Shown here in pieces: positions 1,660-17,347 of a stretch of 64,000 nt of DNA; within the stretch, counting starts at the first letter, position 1, and every line of letters begins with the position of its first letter. The notes beneath the pieces were generated by a model. The model did not search any database. It worked only from the letters and a program-made list of their open reading frames with translations, and had not been told where the DNA came from. This DNA is from Acidicapsa acidisoli (GTDB lineage: Bacteria; Acidobacteriota; Terriglobia; Terriglobales; Acidobacteriaceae). Both the position numbers and the translations under genes were made by a program. The stretch spans positions 1,798,001 to 1,862,000 of the forward strand of contig NZ_JAGSYI010000001.1 in NCBI RefSeq assembly GCF_025685625.1. The letters are read 5' to 3'.

Positions 1660-2952
1660 ATGAGATTATCCTCCGGTCAACGCCGGATTTTCGCAATCAC
1701 TTGGATCACGTATGCTGGCTTTTATCTCTGCCGGAAGAACCTGAGTGTCGTGCTGCCACTGCTGCATAACGTCTCAGGACTTAATGGAATCGACCTGGCC
1801 AATATTGTCTTTGGCTATAGCCTGTTGTATGCCGTGGGCCAGTTTGTCTGGGGACCACTCTCGGACCGCATCGGAGCGAAGCGCGTTGTCGGCGCTGGGC
1901 TGTTATTGGTCGTGGCCTGCAATCTCCTGATGAGTATGCATGCCTCCTTGATATGGTTGCTGATCCTTGCTTGTCTGAATGGCGCAGGTCAGTCGACAGG
2001 CTGGTCGGGGCTGGTGAAGACAATGGCCATTTGGTTCAACGGGGTGAATCGCGGCATCGTGATGGCGTGGTGGGGCACAAACTTTGTCCTGGGCGGCTTT
2101 CTGGCGACTACCTTCGCAACGTGGGCGATCCTGCAGCCATGGCTACTGCCAGAACTGGGATGGCGCAGGGGATTCTTGTTTCCGGCTCTCTTGCTGGCGG
2201 CGATTACGGGAGTGTTTCTGATTGGCGCCAAGGAGACACCGGAGCAGGCGGATCTGCCACCGGGTATGCAGGTTGAGCTGGCGGAAGTGAGCAAGGTGCG
2301 CTCAAGCTGGAGTATTCTCGCTACGCTGCTGTGCAAGCCATCCTTGTGGCTCATGAGTCTCTCGTACTTTTTTCTGACCCTTTGCCGTTATGCGCTGATG
2401 TTCTGGCTACCGCTTTATATGGTTAAGGGCCTGAAGTACGATCTACGGACATCTGGATACGTGTCGTCCCTGTATGAACTGATCGGCATTCTCGGCGCAC
2501 TGCTGGCGGGATACATCTCGGATCGCATGATTCAATCCCGGCGAGCGCCTGTATCGGCGATCATGCTGGCGGGATTCTGCATCATCCTGCTGGCTGAGCC
2601 TGCCATGAGCCGTTATGGACTCTGGGGCACAGCGCTGGCCATCTCTTTGGCTGGCATTTTCTCGTACGGTCCTGACACGTTACTTTCCGGTGCAGGCGCT
2701 CAGGACATTGGCTCAGCCCAGGGTGCGGCAACCGCTGCCGGGCTTGTGGATGGCATCGGCCACCTGGGTGCTGTCTTTTCACCATACGTGGTGGTCTATA
2801 TAAGTGAACACTACGGATGGGACCACCTCTTCTTTGTGCTTGCCGGTGCTGCATTGGTTGCCGGTGTCGCATTGATGCCGATGTGGAATCTCAAGCCCTC
2901 CAGTCATAGTGCGCTCGAGTTGGAAGACAAGGTGCTGCAGCAGGTGGTGTGA
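1660..2952 (+). CDS. MFS permease of the organophosphate:phosphate antiporter (OPA) type
   Basis: A 430-residue inner-membrane permease with about 12 hydrophobic helices. Helix 1 has YAGFYLCRKNLSVVLP, and the loop between helices 2 and 3 has GPLSDRIGAKR, the MFS signature. Both are typical of the GlpT/UhpT/PgtP (OPA) branch, which exchanges organic phosphates for inorganic phosphate. A second cytoplasmic-loop copy (GYISDRMIQSRRAP) begins the C-terminal half. Start ATG 1660 follows GGAG with 5-base spacing. It lies upstream of a TonB-dependent receptor, phnW and the phn operon, and the island has no phnCDE importer. I therefore infer that it may import a phosphonate or phosphate ester across the inner membrane. 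The substrate is not shown by sequence. Confidence 0.85.
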   Translation: MRLSSGQRRIFAITWITYAGFYLCRKNLSVVLPLLHNVSGLNGIDLANIVFGYSLLYAVGQFVWGPLSDRIGAKRVVGAGLLLVVACNLLMSMHASLIWLLILACLNGAGQSTGWSGLVKTMAIWFNGVNRGIVMAWWGTNFVLGGFLATTFATWAILQPWLLPELGWRRGFLFPALLLAAITGVFLIGAKETPEQADLPPGMQVELAEVSKVRSSWSILATLLCKPSLWLMSLSYFFLTLCRYALMFWLPLYMVKGLKYDLRTSGYVSSLYELIGILGALLAGYISDRMIQSRRAPVSAIMLAGFCIILLAEPAMSRYGLWGTALAISLAGIFSYGPDTLLSGAGAQDIGSAQGAATAAGLVDGIGHLGAVFSPYVVVYISEHYGWDHLFFVLAGAALVAGVALMPMWNLKPSSHSALELEDKVLQQVV

Positions 2953-6817: not shown

Positions 6818-8569
6818 ATGCTTAAAAGACTCTGCGTATTTTTCGCTCTGATGGCGAACGTCGCGTATGCCGCGGATACGATCTATATCAATGCGAACGT
6901 AATCACGGTCGATAAGGATCGTCCAGCCGCGCAAGCCTTCGTCATCGACAATGGCCGCTTTACCGCAGTCGGATCGAACGCGGAAATGCTGAAGCTCAAG
7001 ACCACCTCGACCAAAGTGGTCGACCTCAAAGGCATGACGGTAACTCCTGGATTCAATGACGTCCACGTGCATCCGCAGCAGATCTTCGACGAGAGCTCAG
7101 TGTATTACCGCGTCTGGCTGGGTCCCGACAAGGCCAAGACGATCGACGAGTTTGTGGCTGAGCTGAAGAAGAAGGCGGCCATCACGCCTGCAGGCAAGAT
7201 GATCAATGGATATGGATACAACGACCAGACACTGGGCCGTCATCCTAACAAGCACGACCTTGATAAAGTCTCGACTACACAACCCGTTGTGGTGACTCAC
7301 AGCTCCGGTCATATTACAGTGGTGAATAGCTTCGTATTGCAGGCTGCGGGCATCACCAAAGAGACGGCCGATCCGCCAGGCGGAGCATTCGATCGTGATC
7401 CCGATGGAACCCCGAACGGCGTGGTCCGTGAAAGCGCACGCAGGCTTCTTTCCAAGGGAACTTCTCACAGCCTGCTGAGCAGCGAAATGCCCCACGAAAC
7501 AGAACTGCAGGGGTACATGAACTGCTTCAAACAATACGCTGCCAGGGGCATTACCAGCGTAGACATTGCGGGAGGCGGTCCCGCGTCATTTCGCTCCATG
7601 CAGGACCTGCGTGATCTTGGCAATCCTGTCCGCGTTGGGTTCATGTTCAGTGCGGATGACTTCGATCAGCTTCAGGCAGCGGGATTACAGCGCGGCTTTG
7701 GAGACGATCGGCTTCGTGTCACCGCGCTCAAGACCTATCAGGGTAACTCGTTGAGTGGACGCACCGCGTGGCTCAGCAAGGCATACTCTGACCGTCCTGA
7801 CTACTTCGGCATCCCACCGGCACGCAGTCAGGAACAACTGGACGCGGACTATCTGAAGTGGTGGAACGCGGGATGGCAGGTTGCAACTCACTCCAACGGC
7901 GACCGCGAGATCGACATGGTCCTCACCGCGATTGAGCGAGCCGAGGCAAAGAATCCTCGCCCCAACGCCCGCTGGCGGATCGAACACGCGAGCGTCATGA
8001 ATCAGGCGCTGCTCGATCGCGCGAAAAAGGACGGCGTGATTCTGGTGTTTCATTCCTACTTCTGGGAGTACGGAAATGTACTCGCCTCCTACGGGCCAGA
8101 GCGTCTTTCGATGATGCATGCCTATCGCACTGCAATCGATATGGGAATTCCGGTGGCCGGCCACTCCGATTCACCCATCTCGGCAGCGTATCCGTTACTC
8201 AGGATTCAGGATATGGTTACGCGTAAGAGTTCGCAGGGCAATGTCATGGGAGGCAACCAGAAAATCAGCGTGGATGAGGCTATCAAAGTATGGACTCTGG
8301 ATGGAGCCTATACCACCTTCGAAGAGAAAGACAAAGGCTCGATCACTCCTGGGAAGCTCGCGGATTTCGTTGTGCTCGAAAAGGATCCGCGCAAGGTTAA
8401 TCCCGACACCATCAAGGACATTGTTCTTGAGGCAACCTACATGGGCGGAGACAAAGTCTACACCGCGCCAGGTAAACCCGTTGCTATGATCCCCCAGCCA
8501 CCCATCAATTACGGCGATGGCAACTACGGCGATGGCGATGAAGAGGAAAATGAAAGTGGCAACAATTAA
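6818..8569 (+). CDS. Secreted amidohydrolase, YtcJ-like
   Basis: 583 residues. The signal peptide MLKRLCVFFALMANVAYA precedes a metal-dependent amidohydrolase of the YtcJ/amidohydrolase_3 type. It has an N-terminal beta-sandwich strand pair, then TPGFNDVHVHP (the HxH metal pair, near residues 80-90), VATHSNGDREID (metal His), WRIEHASV (metal His) and VAGHSDSP (catalytic Asp region). SITPGKLADFVVLEKDP is the usual closing strand. ATG 6818 is chosen because GGAGA (6808-6812) precedes it; an ATG at 6806 would lengthen the protein by four residues. Its end overlaps the phnW start by 20 bases, implying translational coupling. Members of this family hydrolyse N-acyl or amide bonds. Release of an amino-phosphonate from a periplasmic conjugate for PhnW is plausible but unproven. 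The Gly/Asp/Glu/Asn-rich tail (~20 residues) is unusual. Confidence 0.88.
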   Translation: MLKRLCVFFALMANVAYAADTIYINANVITVDKDRPAAQAFVIDNGRFTAVGSNAEMLKLKTTSTKVVDLKGMTVTPGFNDVHVHPQQIFDESSVYYRVWLGPDKAKTIDEFVAELKKKAAITPAGKMINGYGYNDQTLGRHPNKHDLDKVSTTQPVVVTHSSGHITVVNSFVLQAAGITKETADPPGGAFDRDPDGTPNGVVRESARRLLSKGTSHSLLSSEMPHETELQGYMNCFKQYAARGITSVDIAGGGPASFRSMQDLRDLGNPVRVGFMFSADDFDQLQAAGLQRGFGDDRLRVTALKTYQGNSLSGRTAWLSKAYSDRPDYFGIPPARSQEQLDADYLKWWNAGWQVATHSNGDREIDMVLTAIERAEAKNPRPNARWRIEHASVMNQALLDRAKKDGVILVFHSYFWEYGNVLASYGPERLSMMHAYRTAIDMGIPVAGHSDSPISAAYPLLRIQDMVTRKSSQGNVMGGNQKISVDEAIKVWTLDGAYTTFEEKDKGSITPGKLADFVVLEKDPRKVNPDTIKDIVLEATYMGGDKVYTAPGKPVAMIPQPPINYGDGNYGDGDEEENESGNN

Positions 8570-9692
8570 TCCCGGCAAGCTGCTCTTTACGCCCGGTCCC
8601 CTGACCACCAGTTCTACGGTCAAGGGGGCTATGCTTCGCGATCTAGGGTCTCTCGATCGCGATTTCCTAACGACTGTCCTCAACATTCGTACTCGTCTCC
8701 TCGACCTCGGACCGTATCCCCGCGAGGACTTCGAGTGCGTGCTCATGCAGGGCAGCGGAACCTATGTGGTCGAATCTGTCATCTCTTCCGTGATCCCGCG
8801 CGACGGCAAAGTGCTGGTGCTTGTGAACGGCGCATACGGACGGCGCATTGCGCAGACTGCGCGGGTTCACGGCATTGCGCTCGATGTTCTTGAAGTTGAA
8901 GAGAACAGAAAATTTACTCCCGAACTTGTCGCCGAACATCTGGCAGTCGCCAGTGGAATCACTCATGTTGCAGTGGTGCACTGTGAAACCACCAGCGGCA
9001 TTTTGAATCAGGTAGAACAAATAGGGCATGTAGTCCATGCTGCTGGCGCGAGTTACATTGTCGATGCGATGAGCAGTTTTGGAGCAATCCCCATCGATAT
9101 GGCTGGTTCGCATATCGACTTCCTGATTTCGTCGGCGAATAAATGCATTGAAGGCGTCCCTGGGTTTGGATTTGTGATCGCCAACCGTCGCGCTCTGGAT
9201 GCTGCAAAAGGACATGCACGCACGTTGAGTCTCGATCTCTACGACCAATGGGCAAGTATGGAAGCCAACCACGGCCATTTTCGATTTACGCCCCCGATTC
9301 AGAGCATTCTCGCCTTTGAACAGGCTTTGAATGAACTAGACGAAGAGGGCGGTGTGGGAGCACGCGGAGAGCGCTATCGACAAAATCATATTGCGCTTTG
9401 CCGGGGAATGAAGGCCCTTGGCTTTGAGATCTATCTCGCGGAGGAAGATCAGAGTTTCATCATCACGTCCTTCCGCTATCCTTCAAGCCCCGCCTTCCGA
9501 TTTGCCGATTTCTACGAAAGGCTCTGGACACGCGGCTTCGCAATCTACCCAGGCAAGCTATCGCACGAGTCCTGCTTCCGCATTGGTTCGATTGGCAGAA
9601 TCACTATCACCGAAATCGAGGCACTATTGACCGCAATCCCTCAGGTGCTGTGCGAGATGGGCGTCGAGATAAAAAGCGAAGTTATCGGGTAA
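8550..9692 (+). CDS. phnW: 2-aminoethylphosphonate:pyruvate transaminase
   Basis: 380 residues, class V PLP aminotransferase fold. It matches PhnW along its length: LLFTPGPLTTSSTVK at the N-terminus, QGSGTYVVESVI, HCETTSGILN, VDAMSSFGAIPIDM, the Schiff-base lysine in SSANKCIEGVPGFGFVI, LDLYDQW, and IYPGKLSHESCFRIGSIG at the C-terminus. It moves the amino group of 2-aminoethylphosphonate to pyruvate, giving phosphonoacetaldehyde and alanine. ATG 8550 follows AGAGG by 5 bases; upstream ATGs lie inside the amidohydrolase gene. The usual partner, phosphonoacetaldehyde hydrolase (phnX) or phnY/phnA, is not in the window. The product may be handled by a gene beyond the left edge or elsewhere, or by the adjacent dehydrogenase. 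Confidence 0.93.
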   Translation: MKVATINPGKLLFTPGPLTTSSTVKGAMLRDLGSLDRDFLTTVLNIRTRLLDLGPYPREDFECVLMQGSGTYVVESVISSVIPRDGKVLVLVNGAYGRRIAQTARVHGIALDVLEVEENRKFTPELVAEHLAVASGITHVAVVHCETTSGILNQVEQIGHVVHAAGASYIVDAMSSFGAIPIDMAGSHIDFLISSANKCIEGVPGFGFVIANRRALDAAKGHARTLSLDLYDQWASMEANHGHFRFTPPIQSILAFEQALNELDEEGGVGARGERYRQNHIALCRGMKALGFEIYLAEEDQSFIITSFRYPSSPAFRFADFYERLWTRGFAIYPGKLSHESCFRIGSIGRITITEIEALLTAIPQVLCEMGVEIKSEVIG

Positions 9693-10867: not shown

Positions 10868-12064
10868 TTAGGCCATGGCAGATTCATAAAGAAGCGGCTT
10901 TGACGTTGCATTGTCGGCAAGATCCCGCTCCCTGAGTGATGCATAGCGTTCCTTGCCGCCAACCCAGACTCGGGAGACATCCCCGAATCCTCTGTGTGGA
11001 TGAAAGGCAACCAGGTCGGCTTCTTTGCCCACTTCAATGCTGCCAGTGCGGTCGCCGATTCCAAGGTGCCGCGCGGGATTCAGAGTGAACAGGTTAATTG
11101 CCGCGGAAAGCTTCATGCCTGCTTCGGCCATGCGTACGGCGGAAGCCAGCATCGACGGGAAATGATAATCGCTGCAAAGGATATCGACCAGGTTTTCCGC
11201 GAGTGCTTCGTGGCAGGAAAGATTGCCGCAGTGGGAACCGCCGCGATAATAATTTGGCGCCCCCATGCAGACCATCATGCCTAATTCCTTGGCTTTGCGC
11301 GCGGCCTCAATCGAGCACGGCATTTCGCTCAAAGTGGCTCCCGATGCGAATGCTTCGATCACGTGCTCGACAGTAGTATCGTCATGACTGCCCAGGGGGA
11401 TTCTTCCTCGCACATGCGCCTTGACCTGCATTCGGTTGTTGATCTTGCCGACTCTTTCGATGCGCTCCTGCATTCTCCGGCGCGCTTCTTCGACGGACGT
11501 CTTCTGCAGGCTGGCGTGCTGTTTTAGCATAGCTTCGATATCGCGGAATTGGCGCTGGCCTGGCATATCGTCGTTAAAGACCAGATTCGCGATGCTTTTG
11601 AGTGCGAGCAGTTGGTCAAGGACAGGTTCAACCGGTTCGAAGTTCGGACTCCACCGAAGATGAATAAGATGACGAGCGCGCATGTCAGGAATCAGCTCGT
11701 CAAATCTCTTTGCCAGCGCCAATCCATCTACGTTCGCTGCGCCGGTCTCGTTTTCGCGCTCTTCCGAAATACGCGCAGCGGTGGAAACGGTGGTGAGGCC
11801 GCAACCGAGGGCGCGCATATCCATGACGTGCATTGCCAATTCGATTGGGATGTTCGCTCCAGGACGCGGACTGAGTTCGCGCTCCAGATAATCGGTATGA
11901 ATATCGATCATGCCCGGAATGAGAATCGCGCGATGGAGATCTATCCCATCGGCAACGCGATGTGGCAGGATATCGGCGATGCATCCGTCTGCAAGGACTA
12001 GCGATCCATTCTCGACTTTATCGGGACGAACGATGCTGGCGTTGGTGAGAATTGTTTCAGTCAC
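10868..12064 (-). CDS. phnM: Alpha-D-ribose 1-methylphosphonate 5-triphosphate diphosphatase
   Basis: 398 residues (E. coli PhnM about 378). Amidohydrolase fold with the metal HxH-type motif in IPGMIDIHTDYLERE; LVFNDDMPGQRQF, KAHVRGRIPLGSHDD, GAPNYYRGGSHCGNLS and DILCSDYHFPSML are all PhnM hallmarks. It removes pyrophosphate from ribose 1-methylphosphonate 5-triphosphate, giving the substrate of PhnJ. The start is a GTG at 12064 preceded by AAGAAGAG. It is the last gene of the phnGHIJKLM operon, 70 bases after phnL. The following PRPP-recycling genes phnN and phnP of E. coli are absent here. Confidence 0.94.
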   Translation of the reverse strand: MTETILTNASIVRPDKVENGSLVLADGCIADILPHRVADGIDLHRAILIPGMIDIHTDYLERELSPRPGANIPIELAMHVMDMRALGCGLTTVSTAARISEERENETGAANVDGLALAKRFDELIPDMRARHLIHLRWSPNFEPVEPVLDQLLALKSIANLVFNDDMPGQRQFRDIEAMLKQHASLQKTSVEEARRRMQERIERVGKINNRMQVKAHVRGRIPLGSHDDTTVEHVIEAFASGATLSEMPCSIEAARKAKELGMMVCMGAPNYYRGGSHCGNLSCHEALAENLVDILCSDYHFPSMLASAVRMAEAGMKLSAAINLFTLNPARHLGIGDRTGSIEVGKEADLVAFHPHRGFGDVSRVWVGGKERYASLRERDLADNATSKPLLYESAMA

Positions 12065-12134: not shown

Positions 12135-12848
12135 CTAGGCATAAGCAGCATCCTTGAGACGTCCATTTTCAAGGTGCAGTGAGCGATCGGACAGCGCGGC
12201 TAATGTATGTTCGTCGTGGGAGATGAGAATGATTGAGGTACCGGTCTCGCGCAGTTCGCGCAGCATCTCGATCACTGCCTCCTTTGTCTTTGGGTCGAGC
12301 GAAGCTGTCGGCTCATCGATAAGCAAGATGCGGGGTTGTGCGATCATCGCGCGAGCAATGTTGACGCGCTGCTGTTCGCCTCCACTGAATGTAGCTGGAT
12401 AGCTGTCCCATAGCTCTTTGGGCAAACTTAGCCGTTCGAAGCAGTCGCCGGCTGCAAGGCGGGCCTCTTCGATGGATCGCCCGCGCGGCACCAGCGCGGA
12501 AGCTACGACATCAATCGCCGCGACGCGCGGAATCGCTTGAAGAAACTGCGAACAATAGGTCATCTCGGTCTTGCGAAGCCGCAGCACCGCGTGCTCCAAT
12601 GCCGTTGCAAGATCAACGATCTCGCCTTGTGCCGTTCGATAGAGGATCTGTCCTCTGCTTGCCAGGTAAGTACGATACACGCACTTCATGATGGTTGACT
12701 TCCCGGAGCCAGACTTTCCTGTCAAAGCGAGAATCTCACCCTCGCCGACCTCCAGGGAAACCCGATGCAGAGCGTCGATTGTCTTTCCATTGAGGATGTG
12801 GAATTCGAACCGTTTTTCAAGATTCACTATCTGCAATAAATTTTTCAT
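12135..12848 (-). CDS. phnL: C-P lyase system ABC-type ATPase-like protein PhnL
   Basis: 237 residues. Walker A GKSGSGKS near residue 41, YCSQFLQAIPRVAAIDVV typical of PhnL, ABC signature TFSGGEQQRVNIARAMI, Walker B ILLIDEPTASLD and switch His in LISHDEHTLAAL. PhnL has an ABC-transporter ATPase fold but acts with the soluble PhnGHIJ core and PhnK. It is linked to making the 5-triphosphate intermediate (with PhnI, G, H) rather than to import. A good ribosome binding site (AGAGGAATCG) precedes ATG 12848. Confidence 0.95.
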   Translation of the reverse strand: MKNLLQIVNLEKRFEFHILNGKTIDALHRVSLEVGEGEILALTGKSGSGKSTIMKCVYRTYLASRGQILYRTAQGEIVDLATALEHAVLRLRKTEMTYCSQFLQAIPRVAAIDVVASALVPRGRSIEEARLAAGDCFERLSLPKELWDSYPATFSGGEQQRVNIARAMIAQPRILLIDEPTASLDPKTKEAVIEMLRELRETGTSIILISHDEHTLAALSDRSLHLENGRLKDAAYA

Positions 12849-12890: not shown

Positions 12891-13739
12891 TTAGAGCAGA
12901 GAACTCACCAGGAGCTGCGTATATCCATGCTGTGGATCTTGCAGTATCTGGTCGGTGAGGCCATGCTCAACGATATGGCCGTTCTTCAGCACCATGGTGC
13001 GGTCGGTCAGCATCCGGATCACTCCAAGATCGTGCGAAACGACAATCATGGAGATACCAAGATCCTGCTGCAGTCCGCGGATTAGATCGAGGACTTTGGC
13101 CTGCACGGAAACATCAAGTCCGCTTGTGATTTCATCGAGTAACAGCAACGGCGGATCGTTTGCGATTGCCTTGGCAATCTGCACTCTCTGCTGCATTCCG
13201 CCGCTGAAGCGCGCTGGCGACTCATCCATGCGCTTCAGCGGCACCTCAGTTTTGCTCAAGAGGTACGCGCCGCGAACGCGAATCTTGGCGACGTTGAAGA
13301 CACTCGCCATCAGCAGTTTTTCGGCGATATTGCCGCCGGAAGAAAATCGGAAGTTGAGTCCGTCGCGCGGATTCTGATAGACCATGCCCATCAGGTGATT
13401 CCGAATGTAGCGTTTCTTCTGGTTGGAGAGATCGAACAAATTGGTTGCGCCGTCTTCGACGGCCTTGAAGTTGACTTCGCCGGAGGTTGGTTCCTGGTCG
13501 AAATAGAGCATCTGCACGAGGCTGCTTTTGCCGGAGCCGCTCTCTCCAACGATGCCGAGCACCTCACCCGGAAACAAATCGAAGCTAATGTCGCTGCATG
13601 CGACAACTGCTCCCGTGCGAGGACAAATATTCGAGCCGAATCTCGGCCCGGTACGTTCCAGCACTCCAGGCGTTGCCTCGCCGTGGATCTTCGTCAGATT
13701 TCGAACACGCAGCAGCCAGTTGTCATCCATCTCGGCCAT
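12891..13739 (-). CDS. phnK: C-P lyase system ABC-type ATPase-like protein PhnK
   Basis: 282 residues. The order matches PhnK: N-terminal LLRVRNLTKIHG, Walker A GIVGESGSGKSSLV, MVYQNPRDGLNFRFSSGGNI, signature FSGGMQQRVQIAKAI, Walker B LLLLDEITSGLDVSVQAK, switch His SHDLGVIRML and C-terminal QLLVSSLL. PhnK dimers bind the PhnGHIJ core on PhnJ and couple ATP hydrolysis to it. Walker B reads DEIT rather than the common DEPT, with the catalytic Glu kept. The start is 5 bases after the phnJ stop. A PhnK-interacting core is present, so the complex could still assemble despite the altered PhnJ. Confidence 0.95.
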   Translation of the reverse strand: MAEMDDNWLLRVRNLTKIHGEATPGVLERTGPRFGSNICPRTGAVVACSDISFDLFPGEVLGIVGESGSGKSSLVQMLYFDQEPTSGEVNFKAVEDGATNLFDLSNQKKRYIRNHLMGMVYQNPRDGLNFRFSSGGNIAEKLLMASVFNVAKIRVRGAYLLSKTEVPLKRMDESPARFSGGMQQRVQIAKAIANDPPLLLLDEITSGLDVSVQAKVLDLIRGLQQDLGISMIVVSHDLGVIRMLTDRTMVLKNGHIVEHGLTDQILQDPQHGYTQLLVSSLL

Positions 13740-13744
13740 CGTTT

Positions 13745-14629
13745 CTATTCGGGGTTGGTGAAGAGTCTTTGCGGAGGCCGTGGACCTTGTCGCACTTTGT
13801 CCAGGAAGTTGCTGTCATTGATCACCCAGGACCGGCTGAAATCGTCGGCGTAAACCTCATCCATAAATGCCTTGTTCTTGCCCGACACTGAACAATGGAC
13901 ATCCACAAACTCTTCTACCTTGAAGCGGATGTCTTCGAACTCCAGTGGTTCGACGCGCGTGAAGGGAGGAATGCAGTGGATGCGTTTTTCGCGTCCCGCA
14001 CCGAAGAGATACAGGCAACGAGCCATGCTGAGATTGGGAACATCCCAGCTCGGAATCGGGGATGGCGTGGCAACGTAACGTCCGTTCACCAGGATCGGAT
14101 GTCCGGCCCCGCTGCGCAACGCGCCTGTCCTTACGTACGCTTCATAGAGAGTGACCCAGAGCTTCGCGTAGTCGCCCTCAGCGTGCATCGTCCGCGTTTT
14201 TGCTTCATGCCTTTCCACGCCACGGAGAGGCTCAGGCTGCGGTACCTGCAAAATGAGGATCTGCTTCTCTGTCAGAATCTCTTCCGGTATGCGATGACGG
14301 GTTTGAATAACGGTCGCGGCCGCCGTGTTGAAGGTAACGTTGCAGTTTGCCATCTCCTTGATAAAGAGGCGTAGATTGCAGGCGTTTACGCTGGCGTCAC
14401 TACCTTGATCGATTACCTTGACCACGTCTTCGGGCCCGACGAGAGATAGTGTGAGATGCAGCCCGCCAGTTCCCCATCCGCGTGAAATTGGCATCTCGGG
14501 TGAGGAGTAAGGAACCTGATAACCCGGGATGCAAACTGCTTTCAGAGTCTTGCGGCGAATCTCTTTCTTAGTAAACTCGTCGATATAAGCGTAGTTGAAG
14601 CTCTCCTGAAACCGTATATTCTCAATCAT
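13745..14629 (-). CDS. phnJ: PhnJ homologue (C-P lyase subunit) lacking three of four catalytic/cluster cysteines
   Basis: 294 residues (E. coli 281). PhnJ uses a 4Fe-4S cluster and S-adenosylmethionine to cleave the C-P bond of ribose 1-methylphosphonate 5-phosphate. The homology is clear: KAVCIPGYQVP (Gly36, matching glycyl-radical Gly32 of E. coli), GWGTGGLHLTLSL, KVIDQGSD, ATVIQTRHRIPEE, QVPQPEPLRG, FGAGREKRI, PPFTRVEPLEFED. In E. coli the C-terminal region has C241-x2-C244, C266 and C272. Here the aligned stretch reads HCSVSG, then SWVINDSNFL in place of MFVCSDTDYC. So C246 remains, but the other three positions are S249, I270 and L276. The flanking pattern is preserved and the frame is open, so this is substitution, not a frameshift. 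ATG 14629 follows GGAGG with 6-base spacing and overlaps phnI by 8 bases. New cysteines occur at residues 33, 84, 96, 205 and 219. Activity is uncertain. Confidence 0.93.
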   Translation of the reverse strand: MIENIRFQESFNYAYIDEFTKKEIRRKTLKAVCIPGYQVPYSSPEMPISRGWGTGGLHLTLSLVGPEDVVKVIDQGSDASVNACNLRLFIKEMANCNVTFNTAAATVIQTRHRIPEEILTEKQILILQVPQPEPLRGVERHEAKTRTMHAEGDYAKLWVTLYEAYVRTGALRSGAGHPILVNGRYVATPSPIPSWDVPNLSMARCLYLFGAGREKRIHCIPPFTRVEPLEFEDIRFKVEEFVDVHCSVSGKNKAFMDEVYADDFSRSWVINDSNFLDKVRQGPRPPQRLFTNPE

Positions 14630-15761
14630 CGTTATCCTCCGCACCCGCGATCGCGGCCACTTCGTCTCTTTCTTTTTCCTCGGCGATTCGGGCAACTCTG
14701 CGGAAGCCCTCCAGATCGGCCTGGAAGGTGACATAGTGCGGGAGCTTTAGATGATTTGTGAATCCATAGGCCTCAATGACCTCGGTGTGATACAGGACAA
14801 ACTCCTGGTTATTGGCGGGGTTGTCCGGGTTCGGCTCACGGAGCGCGCTTTCAACAACTCCCATGCAGATCGCCTTGGTTTCGTTCTGGCCAAAGCATAG
14901 GCCGTAACCGATCGAAAGCTTAGGTGCGGCGCTCTTTGGCCCGCGGTCGTCGCTGCCCACCATCTCGGCTTCAGTGACTTTGATCCTGCCTGCATAACGG
15001 CGCCTTCCGCGCTTGTCTACGATGCGCACTGGCACGTCACCCACGCGCAGTTCGCCCACAGTTGCGTGAGAGTCGCCGAAGCCGCGCATGGTGCTGTAGG
15101 CCATGCACATCAAAGCACCCGTCTCAGCGCGTGCCAACATCTGCAGCGTACCGGAGCGCGGCACGGGAAACTTGATCGCCTCACGCGTTACATCGAAGAC
15201 CCGCCGGTCTTCGTCGAAGCCAGTTTGCTTGCTCATCCAGCCTTCCTGCAGAAAGATGTCGATCACCTTCTTGTAGGTGGTGATGGCGTGCAGCTTGGAT
15301 GGGTCAACCTCGTCGCGGAGATTGGCTATGAACTTCTCAATAGATCCAAGAGTCGCGTTGAGCAAGGTGGGCTTCAGGAGCCTGAACGAGAAATCACGGG
15401 TGGGACCGAGGATCTGACCGCCTGGAATCTCACGGAAGGTGGAAGAGATGCGGCGGTGTACAAACATCTCTCTTGTGTTCAGGACTTCAGCGAAGTAGCG
15501 GCGCTCAAGTGTGGCGCGATAGGCGCGCAGATGAAACGCCGCCTCAAACGAATCCCCCTCTACCTGTAATAAAGCCAGGGCCGCATGTGCAGGCGCGTAG
15601 AGCGAACCCTCGCCCATTGCCCGATCGACGGCAAGCCGCATCTGGGTGCGTGCCTGGTCTAGTTCAATCGGGGTGGTCTTTCCTCGCCAGCGGAAGTAGT
15701 CCACCAGCTTGTTCGCATTCTCGATTGCGTCCTGTCCGCCTTTGACTGCTACATATCCCAT
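14622..15761 (-). CDS. phnI: Alpha-D-ribose 1-methylphosphonate 5-triphosphate synthase subunit PhnI
   Basis: 379 residues (E. coli about 354). N-terminal GYVAVKGGQDAIENA, LAVDRAMGEGSLY, ALLQVEGDSFEAAFHLRAYR, RRISSTFREIPGGQILGPT, AYSTMRGFGDSHATVGELR and YGLCFGQNETKAICM are all PhnI features. The NHLKLPHYVTFQA motif near residues 336-348 keeps the two His (about 337 and 342) that in E. coli PhnI coordinate zinc beside the PhnJ active site. PhnI is the nucleosidase that swaps adenine of ATP for the phosphonate, with PhnG, H and L. It overlaps phnJ by 8 bases and lies 42 bases after phnH. Conservation here contrasts with the altered PhnJ. Confidence 0.95.
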   Translation of the reverse strand: MGYVAVKGGQDAIENANKLVDYFRWRGKTTPIELDQARTQMRLAVDRAMGEGSLYAPAHAALALLQVEGDSFEAAFHLRAYRATLERRYFAEVLNTREMFVHRRISSTFREIPGGQILGPTRDFSFRLLKPTLLNATLGSIEKFIANLRDEVDPSKLHAITTYKKVIDIFLQEGWMSKQTGFDEDRRVFDVTREAIKFPVPRSGTLQMLARAETGALMCMAYSTMRGFGDSHATVGELRVGDVPVRIVDKRGRRRYAGRIKVTEAEMVGSDDRGPKSAAPKLSIGYGLCFGQNETKAICMGVVESALREPNPDNPANNQEFVLYHTEVIEAYGFTNHLKLPHYVTFQADLEGFRRVARIAEEKERDEVAAIAGAEDNDD

Positions 15762-15803: not shown

Positions 15804-16436
15804 CTAATCCCATTGCAAACGCGTCGAACGTGGCAACGCCAACACGCATGGACCTATGGCTATACTCTCGCAGGTTAAGAAGGCATCGACTCCCAATGGA
15901 AACTCCGCGTTGTGTTCCCGTAATGACTCAAACACTGCTTCGGGCGCACCCTGCACAAACACTATCGTTTCAACTTCGATCCCTGGTCCAGTCAGCGTCA
16001 GCCTGAGAGAGTCTGGCAACGGAGTGGAAGAAATTGCCGCGACCTGGAAGACAACCGTTGCGCCCAGATCCGGATAAGCAAGTTCGCCAAGTCTGGCTTG
16101 ACGCAGGCCATCGAGCCAGCGATCTTCGGACTGCTGGAGATAGGGAAAGATAAGGAAGTCGGCGCGTGGCGCAGAGGTTGGGTTGGCTCCGGTCTCTCGC
16201 TGAATGAAATGCAAAGTGGATTCTCCGCCTTGATCCACGTAGAACGAAGTGTCGCCGCTGAAGAGCGTGAGCGCAATGAACGCTGCACCGCGGTTCAATT
16301 GCGATGGAACATCCAGCGCTGCCTCGCCGAGATGACCGATGCTGCCAGGCCGAGCAGTGCATTGTAGTAGGGTTCTGAAATGCCTCTGTCCATCGAAGAC
16401 CCGGTCATACGGTTTTGGAGCAGCGAGAGTGCTCAT
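15804..16436 (-). CDS. phnH: C-P lyase core subunit PhnH
   Basis: 210 residues (E. coli about 194). VFDGQRHFRTLLQCTARPGSI at the N-terminus, LDVPSQLNRGAAFIALTL, a central ATVVFQV strand, LTLTGPGIEVE and FPLGVDAFLTC followed by ALPRST at the C-terminus match PhnH. It is a PLP-transferase-like fold without PLP that forms part of the (PhnGHIJ)2 core. Its ATG overlaps the phnG stop as ATGA, indicating translational coupling. Confidence 0.93.
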   Translation of the reverse strand: MSTLAAPKPYDRVFDGQRHFRTLLQCTARPGSIGHLGEAALDVPSQLNRGAAFIALTLFSGDTSFYVDQGGESTLHFIQRETGANPTSAPRADFLIFPYLQQSEDRWLDGLRQARLGELAYPDLGATVVFQVAAISSTPLPDSLRLTLTGPGIEVETIVFVQGAPEAVFESLREHNAEFPLGVDAFLTCESIAIGPCVLALPRSTRLQWD

Positions 16437-16915
16437 GCCTCCTCCATCAGCTTGAAGTCCACTTGCGTCTGGAGGATCAAATCGAACTCATCCTGTTCTC
16501 TGCACCTGACGATCTCGCCCTGCTCGCGAAGAAAGGTAACCAGTTCGCATGGAGTCTCAAGGCCGGAATACAACAGCGCATCCACGACAGCGCTGCAATA
16601 CGCACGGACAGGCTCGTCGCCGAGGCAAAGCCCGAAGCCGGCGCGGCCATCGACCGTAACCTCGCACTCCGTAACGAGGGCTTCGCCTAGATAGAATCTC
16701 TGTTGTTCAAGGGAGTCCTCTGCGGGAATCATCGTCAGGCAAACCGACGGGCTCTTGCAAATTTCCACTGAATAAGACTGCTCCAACTGCGAGACCAATG
16801 TCTGGATTGGTTCCAGGGCGCATTCACAGATGATATAGTCGGGACTCAATTTCGCCCCTTCCGATGCGTTCAAACTGTCATTCACGATTCCGCCCATCAT
16901 TCCGGATTTATGCAT
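16433..16915 (-). CDS. phnG: C-P lyase core subunit PhnG
   Basis: About 160 residues (E. coli 150). The sequence is divergent, but the PhnG pattern is visible: RFYLGEALVTECEVTVDGR, GFGLCLGDEPVRAYCSAVVDALL (where E. coli has GYSWVQGRDKQHAERCALIDALM) and a C-terminal TQVDFKLM. It is the first gene of the phn operon and its stop overlaps the phnH start. The start is uncertain: ATG 16915 is preceded by TTAGGAAA, 16900 is a close alternative, and the open frame continues to 16957. Confidence 0.85.
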   Translation of the reverse strand: MHKSGMMGGIVNDSLNASEGAKLSPDYIICECALEPIQTLVSQLEQSYSVEICKSPSVCLTMIPAEDSLEQQRFYLGEALVTECEVTVDGRAGFGLCLGDEPVRAYCSAVVDALLYSGLETPCELVTFLREQGEIVRCREQDEFDLILQTQVDFKLMEEA

Positions 16916-17347
16916 TTTCCTAACTGTTACCGCGGACACGCGACAGTGGCATGGCATCCAGGGAGTGATCTGTCATCATTAAATTCCGTCGATAATTCAA
17001 ATAAATCGTATTCGAATAAGTTCATAATTTCACAATGTGCGCGGCGGGAGTGTTTCAAGAACATGAAATGGCTATTGCGCATTGTGAATACACTTCGCGT
17101 TGTCTCAAGCGCGGTCGCCGGTTTTACGCGGAATATCCCACATCCTTTGCTTCGTAGACGCACTATTGTGACTGAGTACGGCAACATTTATCTAAATGAA
17201 TTCTGACGGCACGCCCTCGCTTCACTTTGGAAGCCATTCACTGTGATTTGAACGCTATCTAGAGATCAATCCGGGCGCGCCTTGTCTGTGCCGCCGAATC
17301 CAGGACGTAATCATGTCTGAATCAAACCAAAGCATCTCCTTCCGCTC
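16916..17347. other. Promoter region of the phn operon
   Basis: About 430 bases between phnG and the end of the rhamnosidase gene, both on the minus strand. It is AT-rich compared with its surroundings, especially 16975-17040, where the phn promoter is expected. It holds a palindrome (see 16997-17018) and one half of a PHO-box-like site (CTGTCAT, 16970-16976) without its partner. Short ORFs here on both strands lack family matches. Confidence 0.4.
16997..17018. promoter_or_regulatory. Palindromic site upstream of phnG, possible operator
   Basis: TTCAAAT and ATTCGAA are inverted half-sites (one mismatch) seven bases apart, overlapping the perfect 10-bp palindrome TATTCGAATA at 17009-17018. 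The site lies ~80-100 bases upstream of phnG in the AT-rich promoter region, so it is a reasonable candidate for the operon's regulator. No regulator gene is next to the operon. Confidence 0.35.

Follow-up and report, generated by a model that had tools for sequence, protein, structure and literature searches.

Can a carbon-phosphorus (C-P) lyase operon serve its host when its PhnJ lacks most of the cysteines held to be essential? The question is raised by the phnJ gene at 13745..14629 (minus strand) of the 64,000-nucleotide stretch of Acidicapsa acidisoli DNA analyzed here, which we call the window. In excerpts of PMC11978286, four PhnJ cysteines are described as conserved and are assigned both the binding of the cluster and the radical chemistry. 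In E. coli these are C241, C244, C266 and C272, the last being the proposed thiyl cysteine. A sequence-only reading of the window had suggested that the last three are missing from this protein.

A full-length PhnJ with three cysteines replaced

The 294-residue product of phnJ matches PF06007 at 395 bits against a cut-off of 25, over profile positions 2-273 of 275, and aligns to E. coli PhnJ (4xb6_D) with an E-value of 7e-89 and 50-51% identity. In the pairwise alignment C246 lies opposite E. coli C241 and, further on, NDSNFL lies opposite SDTDYC, in agreement with the pairing of SWVINDSNFL with MFVCSDTDYC in the sequence-only reading. The multiple alignments also recovered the four residues named there, C, S, I and L at E. 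coli positions 241, 244, 266 and 272. C246 (codon 13892..13894, minus strand, as for all codons given here) is thus kept, and C244, C266 and C272 are replaced by S249 (13883..13885), I270 (13820..13822) and L276 (13802..13804). G36 (14522..14524), the counterpart of the proposed glycyl radical G32, is kept, again as previously noted.

The AlphaFold2 model of the protein has a mean pLDDT of 82.6, with blocks in residues 241-280 at 77-86. It superimposes on 4xb6_D over 274 residues at 2.1 Å (Z 35.5; model residues 6-282 on chain residues 4-278). Since the superposition extends through the C-terminal domain, this domain is in place, and the cysteines have been replaced rather than moved within the fold. 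The protein therefore belongs to the PhnJ family both by its full-length profile match and by its fold, C-terminal domain included, but does not carry the four C-terminal cysteines of a radical-SAM C-P lyase PhnJ. The same C, S, I and L occur in three other acidobacterial assemblies, which excludes a sequencing error.

The phn operon and its neighbors

The phnJ reading frame is uninterrupted, overlaps phnI by 8 nt and ends 5 nt from phnK. Profile matches place phnG-H-I-J-K-L-M together on the minus strand as intact reading frames, so that the operon is complete and in frame, as first read. It comprises phnG (16433..16957; 174 aa with 11 cysteines; PF06754, and TIGR03293 at 84 bits, slightly below its cut-off of 89), phnH (15804..16436; 210 aa; PF05845, and TIGR03292 above cut-off), phnI (14622..15761; 379 aa; PF05861, 399 bits), phnJ, phnK (12891..13739; TIGR02323 at 231 bits, below cut-off), phnL (12135..12848; TIGR02324 above cut-off) and phnM (10868..12064; NF011984 above and TIGR02318 below cut-off). 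PhnK and PhnL are ABC ATPases with Walker A and signature motifs. NCBIfam assigned no family to PhnJ or PhnI, and its PhnK, PhnG and one PhnM model scored below their cut-offs.

The E. coli C-P lyase PhnGHIJKLM (PDB 4xb6, 7z15-7z19) has the same subunits, and the residues of the ribosyl-phosphate pocket and the PhnI zinc histidines are common to both systems. Unlike E. coli, the window lacks C244, C266 and C272 and has Glu (E327) at PhnI D318, and its genome encodes no PhnD that we could find and no PhnN or PhnP above cut-off. The genome search returned no PF12974 match, hence no PhnD-type protein and no complete PhnCDE set, and DUF1045 was not found in it. The best PhnN and PhnP scores were 46 of 156 bits and 77 of 272 bits, both far below cut-off, and one distant PF13563 protein scored above cut-off.

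On the plus strand, about 1.2 kb past phnM, lies phnW (8517..9692; TIGR02326 above cut-off), encoding 2-aminoethylphosphonate--pyruvate transaminase, a neighbor and at most a candidate partner of the operon. We rejected PhnW as a general partner, as it had no match in the other loci with cysteine-poor PhnJ that were scanned. A GlpT/PgtP-like MFS transporter about 8 kb past phnM (1660..2952, plus strand; PF07690 above cut-off, best NCBIfam models all below cut-off) is a possible uptake route. Between 1660 and 10770, genes for this transporter, a TonB-type outer-membrane protein, an amidohydrolase, PhnW and a PanE-like reductase run co-directionally on the plus strand toward the phn operon, possibly forming an island for the use of 2-aminoethylphosphonate.

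Cys-poor PhnJ occurs in at least five phyla

We refer to PhnJ proteins without the cysteines at 244, 266 and 272 as Cys-poor, and to those of the usual type as Cys-rich. Cys-poor proteins account for 21 of 86 PhnJ sequences (83 ORFs, the E. coli sequence, L072 and L137), a similarity-biased sample that does not give a frequency. They come from five phyla, with four in Acidobacteriota, two in Bacteroidota, six in Chloroflexota, two on Thermus plasmids and seven in Alphaproteobacteria. Identity to the window PhnJ is 87-89% in three Acidobacteriaceae MAGs, 63% in a Chitinophagaceae MAG, 60% in an Aquimarina assembly and 52% in a Chloroflexi MAG. The remaining Cys-poor genes reside in five further Chloroflexota genomes, one alphaproteobacterial genome, the Thermus thermophilus HB8 plasmid pVV8, a second Thermus plasmid and six alphaproteobacterial plasmids (Nitratireductor, Haematobacter, Mesorhizobium, Sinorhizobium, Rhizobium and Microvirga).

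All 21 Cys-poor proteins have Cys at position 241. Position 244 is Ser (12) or Thr (9), position 266 is Ile (8), Leu (7) or Val (6), and position 272 is Leu (6), Gly (6), Ala (4), Val (3) or Met (2). Among the Cys-rich sequences, Cys266 and Cys272 are present in 59/59 and Cys244 is aligned in 58/59; the 59th, L013, carries its first two cysteines in a CxC arrangement and hence aligns as if lacking 244. These 80 sequences (21 Cys-poor and 59 Cys-rich) make up the column comparison; the rows left out of it all have four cysteines (L006, mis-trimmed there; L025, a fragment; L041 and L042, divergent). L072 likewise has four cysteines.

PhnJ is scarce in the sampled host groups. It was found in 1 of 396 Acidobacteriota genomes and 1 of 250 genomes of the window's family, both being the window itself, and in 1 of 395 Bacteroidota genomes, the query genome itself. 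In Chloroflexota it occurs in 20 of 251 genomes, and 6 of the 15 loci read were Cys-poor. Alphaproteobacteria gave a match in 55 of 337 genomes, with 1 Cys-poor locus among 30 read; L137 was read in addition. Matches were also present in 215 plasmid records, and 8 of the 15 read, chosen by similarity, were Cys-poor.

No second, normal PhnJ turned up in the window's genome, six other Cys-poor genomes or five more Chloroflexota, several of these being MAGs of unstated completeness. One alphaproteobacterial genome (G1287) has a four-cysteine PhnJ as well as a Cys-poor one, each in an operon with its own transporter genes and phnF-like regulator, suggesting that the two types serve different substrates or conditions. 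Next to its Cys-poor operon (L124, 1-3915) lie additional phnC-, phnE- and phnM-like and sugar-isomerase-like genes, a third partial phosphonate cluster.

Like the window, the T. thermophilus HB8 plasmid pVV8 (NC_017767.1), described in portions of PMC5529391 as rich in phosphonate genes, carries a phn operon that is complete and whose PhnJ is Cys-poor (C, T, V and M at the four positions). Unlike the window, it has its own phnC/D/E, and its PhnJ, 51% identical to that of the window, falls in another Cys-poor clade. Cys-poor PhnJ is likewise encoded on Nitratireductor pOM-1, Haematobacter pOT1-5, Mesorhizobium AR07 and Sinorhizobium B11 plasmids, in operons of the order phnF-G-H-I-J-K-L-M, with phnK missing from the annotation table of pOM-1. 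These four have Gly at position 272, where the window has Leu, and the rhizobial L047 PhnJ is 48% identical to the window protein.

Several unusual forms of PhnJ were also observed. Divergent four-cysteine proteins from a Proteus mirabilis plasmid (L041) and a Martelella plasmid (L042) have Gln instead of His108, and phnM is unannotated within the 5.8-6.8 kb shown for them. In Nocardia and Pseudonocardia (L011, L015 and L016) the phnJ frame continues into an ABC ATPase, giving 586-591 residues from the match start, an apparent PhnJ-PhnK fusion. The Pseudomonas phage Y12 record (OQ572413.1) contains at 6940-7764 an unannotated PhnJ-like stretch with 47.5% identity to Nitratireductor PhnJ.

Phylogeny and selection

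A maximum-likelihood tree of 82 PhnJ sequences, computed with the cysteine domain excluded and rooted at the midpoint, placed the Cys-poor proteins in two clades. One holds the six sequences from Acidobacteriota and Bacteroidota (support 100/99), and the other the 15 from Thermus, Chloroflexota and Alphaproteobacteria (98/88). A Cys-poor clade in Acidobacteriota, a possibility raised in the sequence-only reading, thus exists, but the group reaches far beyond that phylum. Under midpoint rooting both clades are nested among Cys-rich sequences, which suggests that the cysteine loss is derived and probably happened once or twice, with spread between phyla. A single split uniting all 21 has support 69/77 and appears in 70% of bootstrap trees, leaving us unsure of a single origin. 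Elsewhere in the tree, PhnJ of an Actibacterium MAG (L019) and of Halomonas ventosae (L020) are identical over the tree columns and share a long branch, a case of recent transfer or contamination.

The four acidobacterial phnJ genes are under strong purifying selection, with dN of 0.06-0.07 against dS of 1.0-2.7 (near saturation). In their C-terminal domain dN is 0.08-0.13.

The ribosyl-phosphate pocket and zinc site are kept, and no group-wide replacement for the cysteines was found

According to passages of PMC9947105, R107, H108 and Q124 hold the ribosyl cyclic phosphate next to the zinc in the E. coli complex, and the zinc site between PhnI and PhnJ is called a putative active site. Equivalents of the three pocket residues are present in 21/21 Cys-poor PhnJ, including that of the window, and each of the 15 Cys-poor PhnI sequences examined retains the two zinc histidines. 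In the window these histidines are H337 and H342, corresponding by count on the alignment to E. coli 328 and 333, so that the pair singled out at the outset is indeed retained and both the pocket and the zinc/histidine site are in place.

Gly32 is Gly in 80/80 sequences, Cys-poor ones included, a pattern that is no clear argument either for or against radical chemistry. C241 and D268 are also invariant in 80/80, and C241 therefore probably has a role beyond the four-cysteine set. Two positions separate the groups. Lys occupies E. coli position 274 in 21/21 Cys-poor sequences versus 11/59 Cys-rich ones, and the PhnI residue at E. coli Asp318, ten residues ahead of the zinc ligand His328, is Glu in 17/19 Cys-poor loci and Asp in 19/20 Cys-rich loci.

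It had further been proposed that C33, C84, C96, C205 and C219 of the window PhnJ could form a new site. We rejected a new cysteine cluster in PhnJ, as Cys is found at these positions in only 5, 7, 6, 5 and 3 of the 21 Cys-poor proteins, respectively. Nor did the other subunits contain group-wide compensating cysteines, judged by positions with Cys in at least 60% of Cys-poor sequences. The sole positions to reach this level were PhnI 335 (12/19 Cys-poor; 5/20 Cys-rich) and PhnL 56 (12/19; 18/20). PhnG is rich in cysteine in Acidobacteriota and the Chitinophagaceae MAG. Its C44, C46, C73, C98 and C111 are all present in the four Acidobacteriota (the window, L002, L003 and L004), four of the five in L024 and two in L005; neither the Thermus (L036) nor the rhizobial (L047) PhnG compared has any of them. 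These cysteines are a possible metal site in the acidobacterial branch and, given their absence from L036 and L047, could matter in that branch only. CxxxCxxC matches, as expected of a radical-SAM gene acting in trans, occurred in 5/19 loci, and one of them (L123) was plausible by eye.

Operon context of Cys-poor PhnJ

The Cys-poor loci contain matches to PhnG, PhnH, PhnI, PhnK and PhnL in 19/19 cases and to PhnM in 17/19, and phnC/D/E-type transporter genes are present in 11 of the 19 viewed. Genes for downstream steps adjoin several of these operons (L002-L004, L005, L024 and L046). PhnN is encoded close to the operon in the two Bacteroidota (above cut-off) and in Mesorhizobium AR07, and DUF1045, a two-histidine phosphoesterase, adjoins it in three Acidobacteriaceae (above cut-off) and in AR07. 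Excerpts of PMC8235418 propose DUF1045 as the opener of the cyclic ribose phosphate from C-P lyase, and its presence and that of PhnN suggest that Cys-poor complexes still make this compound. In both Bacteroidota the operon is followed by a related-looking protein, with 37% identity between the two and a LigT match slightly below cut-off in L024. Weak two-histidine-family matches flanking two Chloroflexota loci were not counted, because the genome search ranked other places in those genomes.

A possible radical-free reaction at the PhnI-PhnJ zinc site

With the cluster-binding and thiyl residues mostly absent, the canonical radical-SAM reaction in PhnJ is unlikely. The pocket and the zinc site are common to all sequences and have already been called a putative active site in structural work, and we therefore favor a non-radical reaction there. 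We give an even chance to the reading that the window encodes a functional C-P-lyase-type PhnGHIJKLM of a widespread Cys-poor subfamily, in which the radical-SAM module is lost and the reaction takes place at the zinc site. This reading is supported by the absence of the same three cysteines across five phyla, the low dN relative to dS in the acidobacterial genes, the retained pocket and zinc residues, the near-complete operons with frequent transporter genes, the adjoining PhnN and DUF1045 genes, and the exchange of Asp318 for Glu in PhnI.

In this scheme, PhnI together with PhnG, PhnH and PhnL would still attach the phosphorus compound to C1 of the nucleotide ribose, PhnM would trim the triphosphate, and PhnK/PhnL would open the complex; these early steps follow the published E. 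coli pathway. The last step would form 5-phosphoribosyl 1,2-cyclic phosphate at the zinc/histidine site and would need neither an Fe-S cluster nor a thiyl radical if, for example, the ribose 2'-OH attacked the phosphorus. Since plain alkyl phosphonates offer a very poor leaving group for such a step, which needs a tolerable one, the likely substrates would be activated phosphonates (carbonyl-bearing ones, for example) or phosphate esters, not methylphosphonate, although this choice is a guess. In E. coli, phn genes also contribute to the use of phosphite and of phosphate esters. We infer activity, the non-radical step and the substrates, and some observations fit less well. The zinc-site residues are kept in Cys-rich PhnJ too, so their conservation alone is no proof of a reaction there; the invariant Gly32 would also fit retained radical chemistry; and the window's genome lacks a PhnD-type protein and DUF1045 and has only sub-threshold PhnN and PhnP.

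The complete operons with transporters, some with PhnN, and the universal Gly32 would equally suit an ordinary C-P lyase acting on unactivated phosphonates, one that can do without the cluster or that draws its cluster or radical from other residues or another protein. The cluster and Gly32 of E. coli are about 30 Å apart, a distance that, according to PMC9947105 and PMC7916636, the standard mechanism leaves unexplained, and this adds to the case. The five PhnG cysteines common to the four Acidobacteriota could be such other residues, but they thin out to four in L024, two in L005 and none in L036 and L047. Without a group-wide cysteine gain in any other subunit, and with L123 as the one plausible CxxxCxxC match, we consider an ordinary C-P lyase rather unlikely.

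PhnJ might instead have become a scaffold, in a complex whose work is limited to making ribosyl 1-phosphonates or remodeling nucleotides, any C-P cleavage being left to another enzyme. The loss of the proposed catalytic cysteines, the lack of a recognizable PhnN, PhnP or DUF1045 in the window's genome and the adjoining phnW would agree with this. We regard it as unlikely, given the retention of R107, H108 and Q124 in 21/21 Cys-poor proteins, the DUF1045 or PhnN genes beside several Cys-poor operons and the absence of a phnW match from the other Cys-poor loci scanned.

Somewhat less likely again is a conversion of the old cluster site into a different small site, formed by Cys241, Asp268 and Lys at position 274 and catalytic in its own right. 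The two invariant residues and the lysine present in every Cys-poor protein could be read in this way, but a metal would usually need more than two ligand-type residues, the model carries none, and C241 and D268 are just as invariant in Cys-rich sequences and may be structural.

Finally, an inactive or decaying operon is very improbable: the loss of residues held essential and the gaps in the window's genome (PhnD, DUF1045, clear PhnN or PhnP) would fit it, but dN/dS is far below 1, the frames are intact and the same substitutions recur in five phyla. Of the interpretations first offered for the window, inactivity thus falls away, and both other chemistry and another job fit, sequence alone being unable to choose between them.

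Implications for C-P lyase

No earlier mention of Cys-poor PhnJ was found in the open-access papers searched, and in PMC11978286 all four cysteines count as conserved. As a natural set that is conserved yet lacks three of them, the Cys-poor group separates the general needs of the complex from those of radical cleavage, and it is relevant to a problem set out in PMC9947105, the 30 Å gap between cluster and Gly32. As a tentative extension, the zinc/histidine site of PhnI and PhnJ may be the universal catalytic center and the Fe-S/thiyl module an add-on, with Cys-poor enzymes making ribosyl 1,2-cyclic phosphate in a radical-free, oxygen-tolerant manner. If true, phosphonates or phosphate esters would be handled by a pathway that tolerates oxygen but is currently annotated as radical C-P lyase.

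The plasmid-borne Cys-poor genes are annotated as C-P lyase PhnJ, and inferring methane release from phnJ counts could therefore be misleading for them. As the cultured T. thermophilus HB8 carries a Cys-poor operon, the question is directly testable. Either the textbook mechanism of C-P lyase is not universal, or the Cys-poor complexes do a different job.
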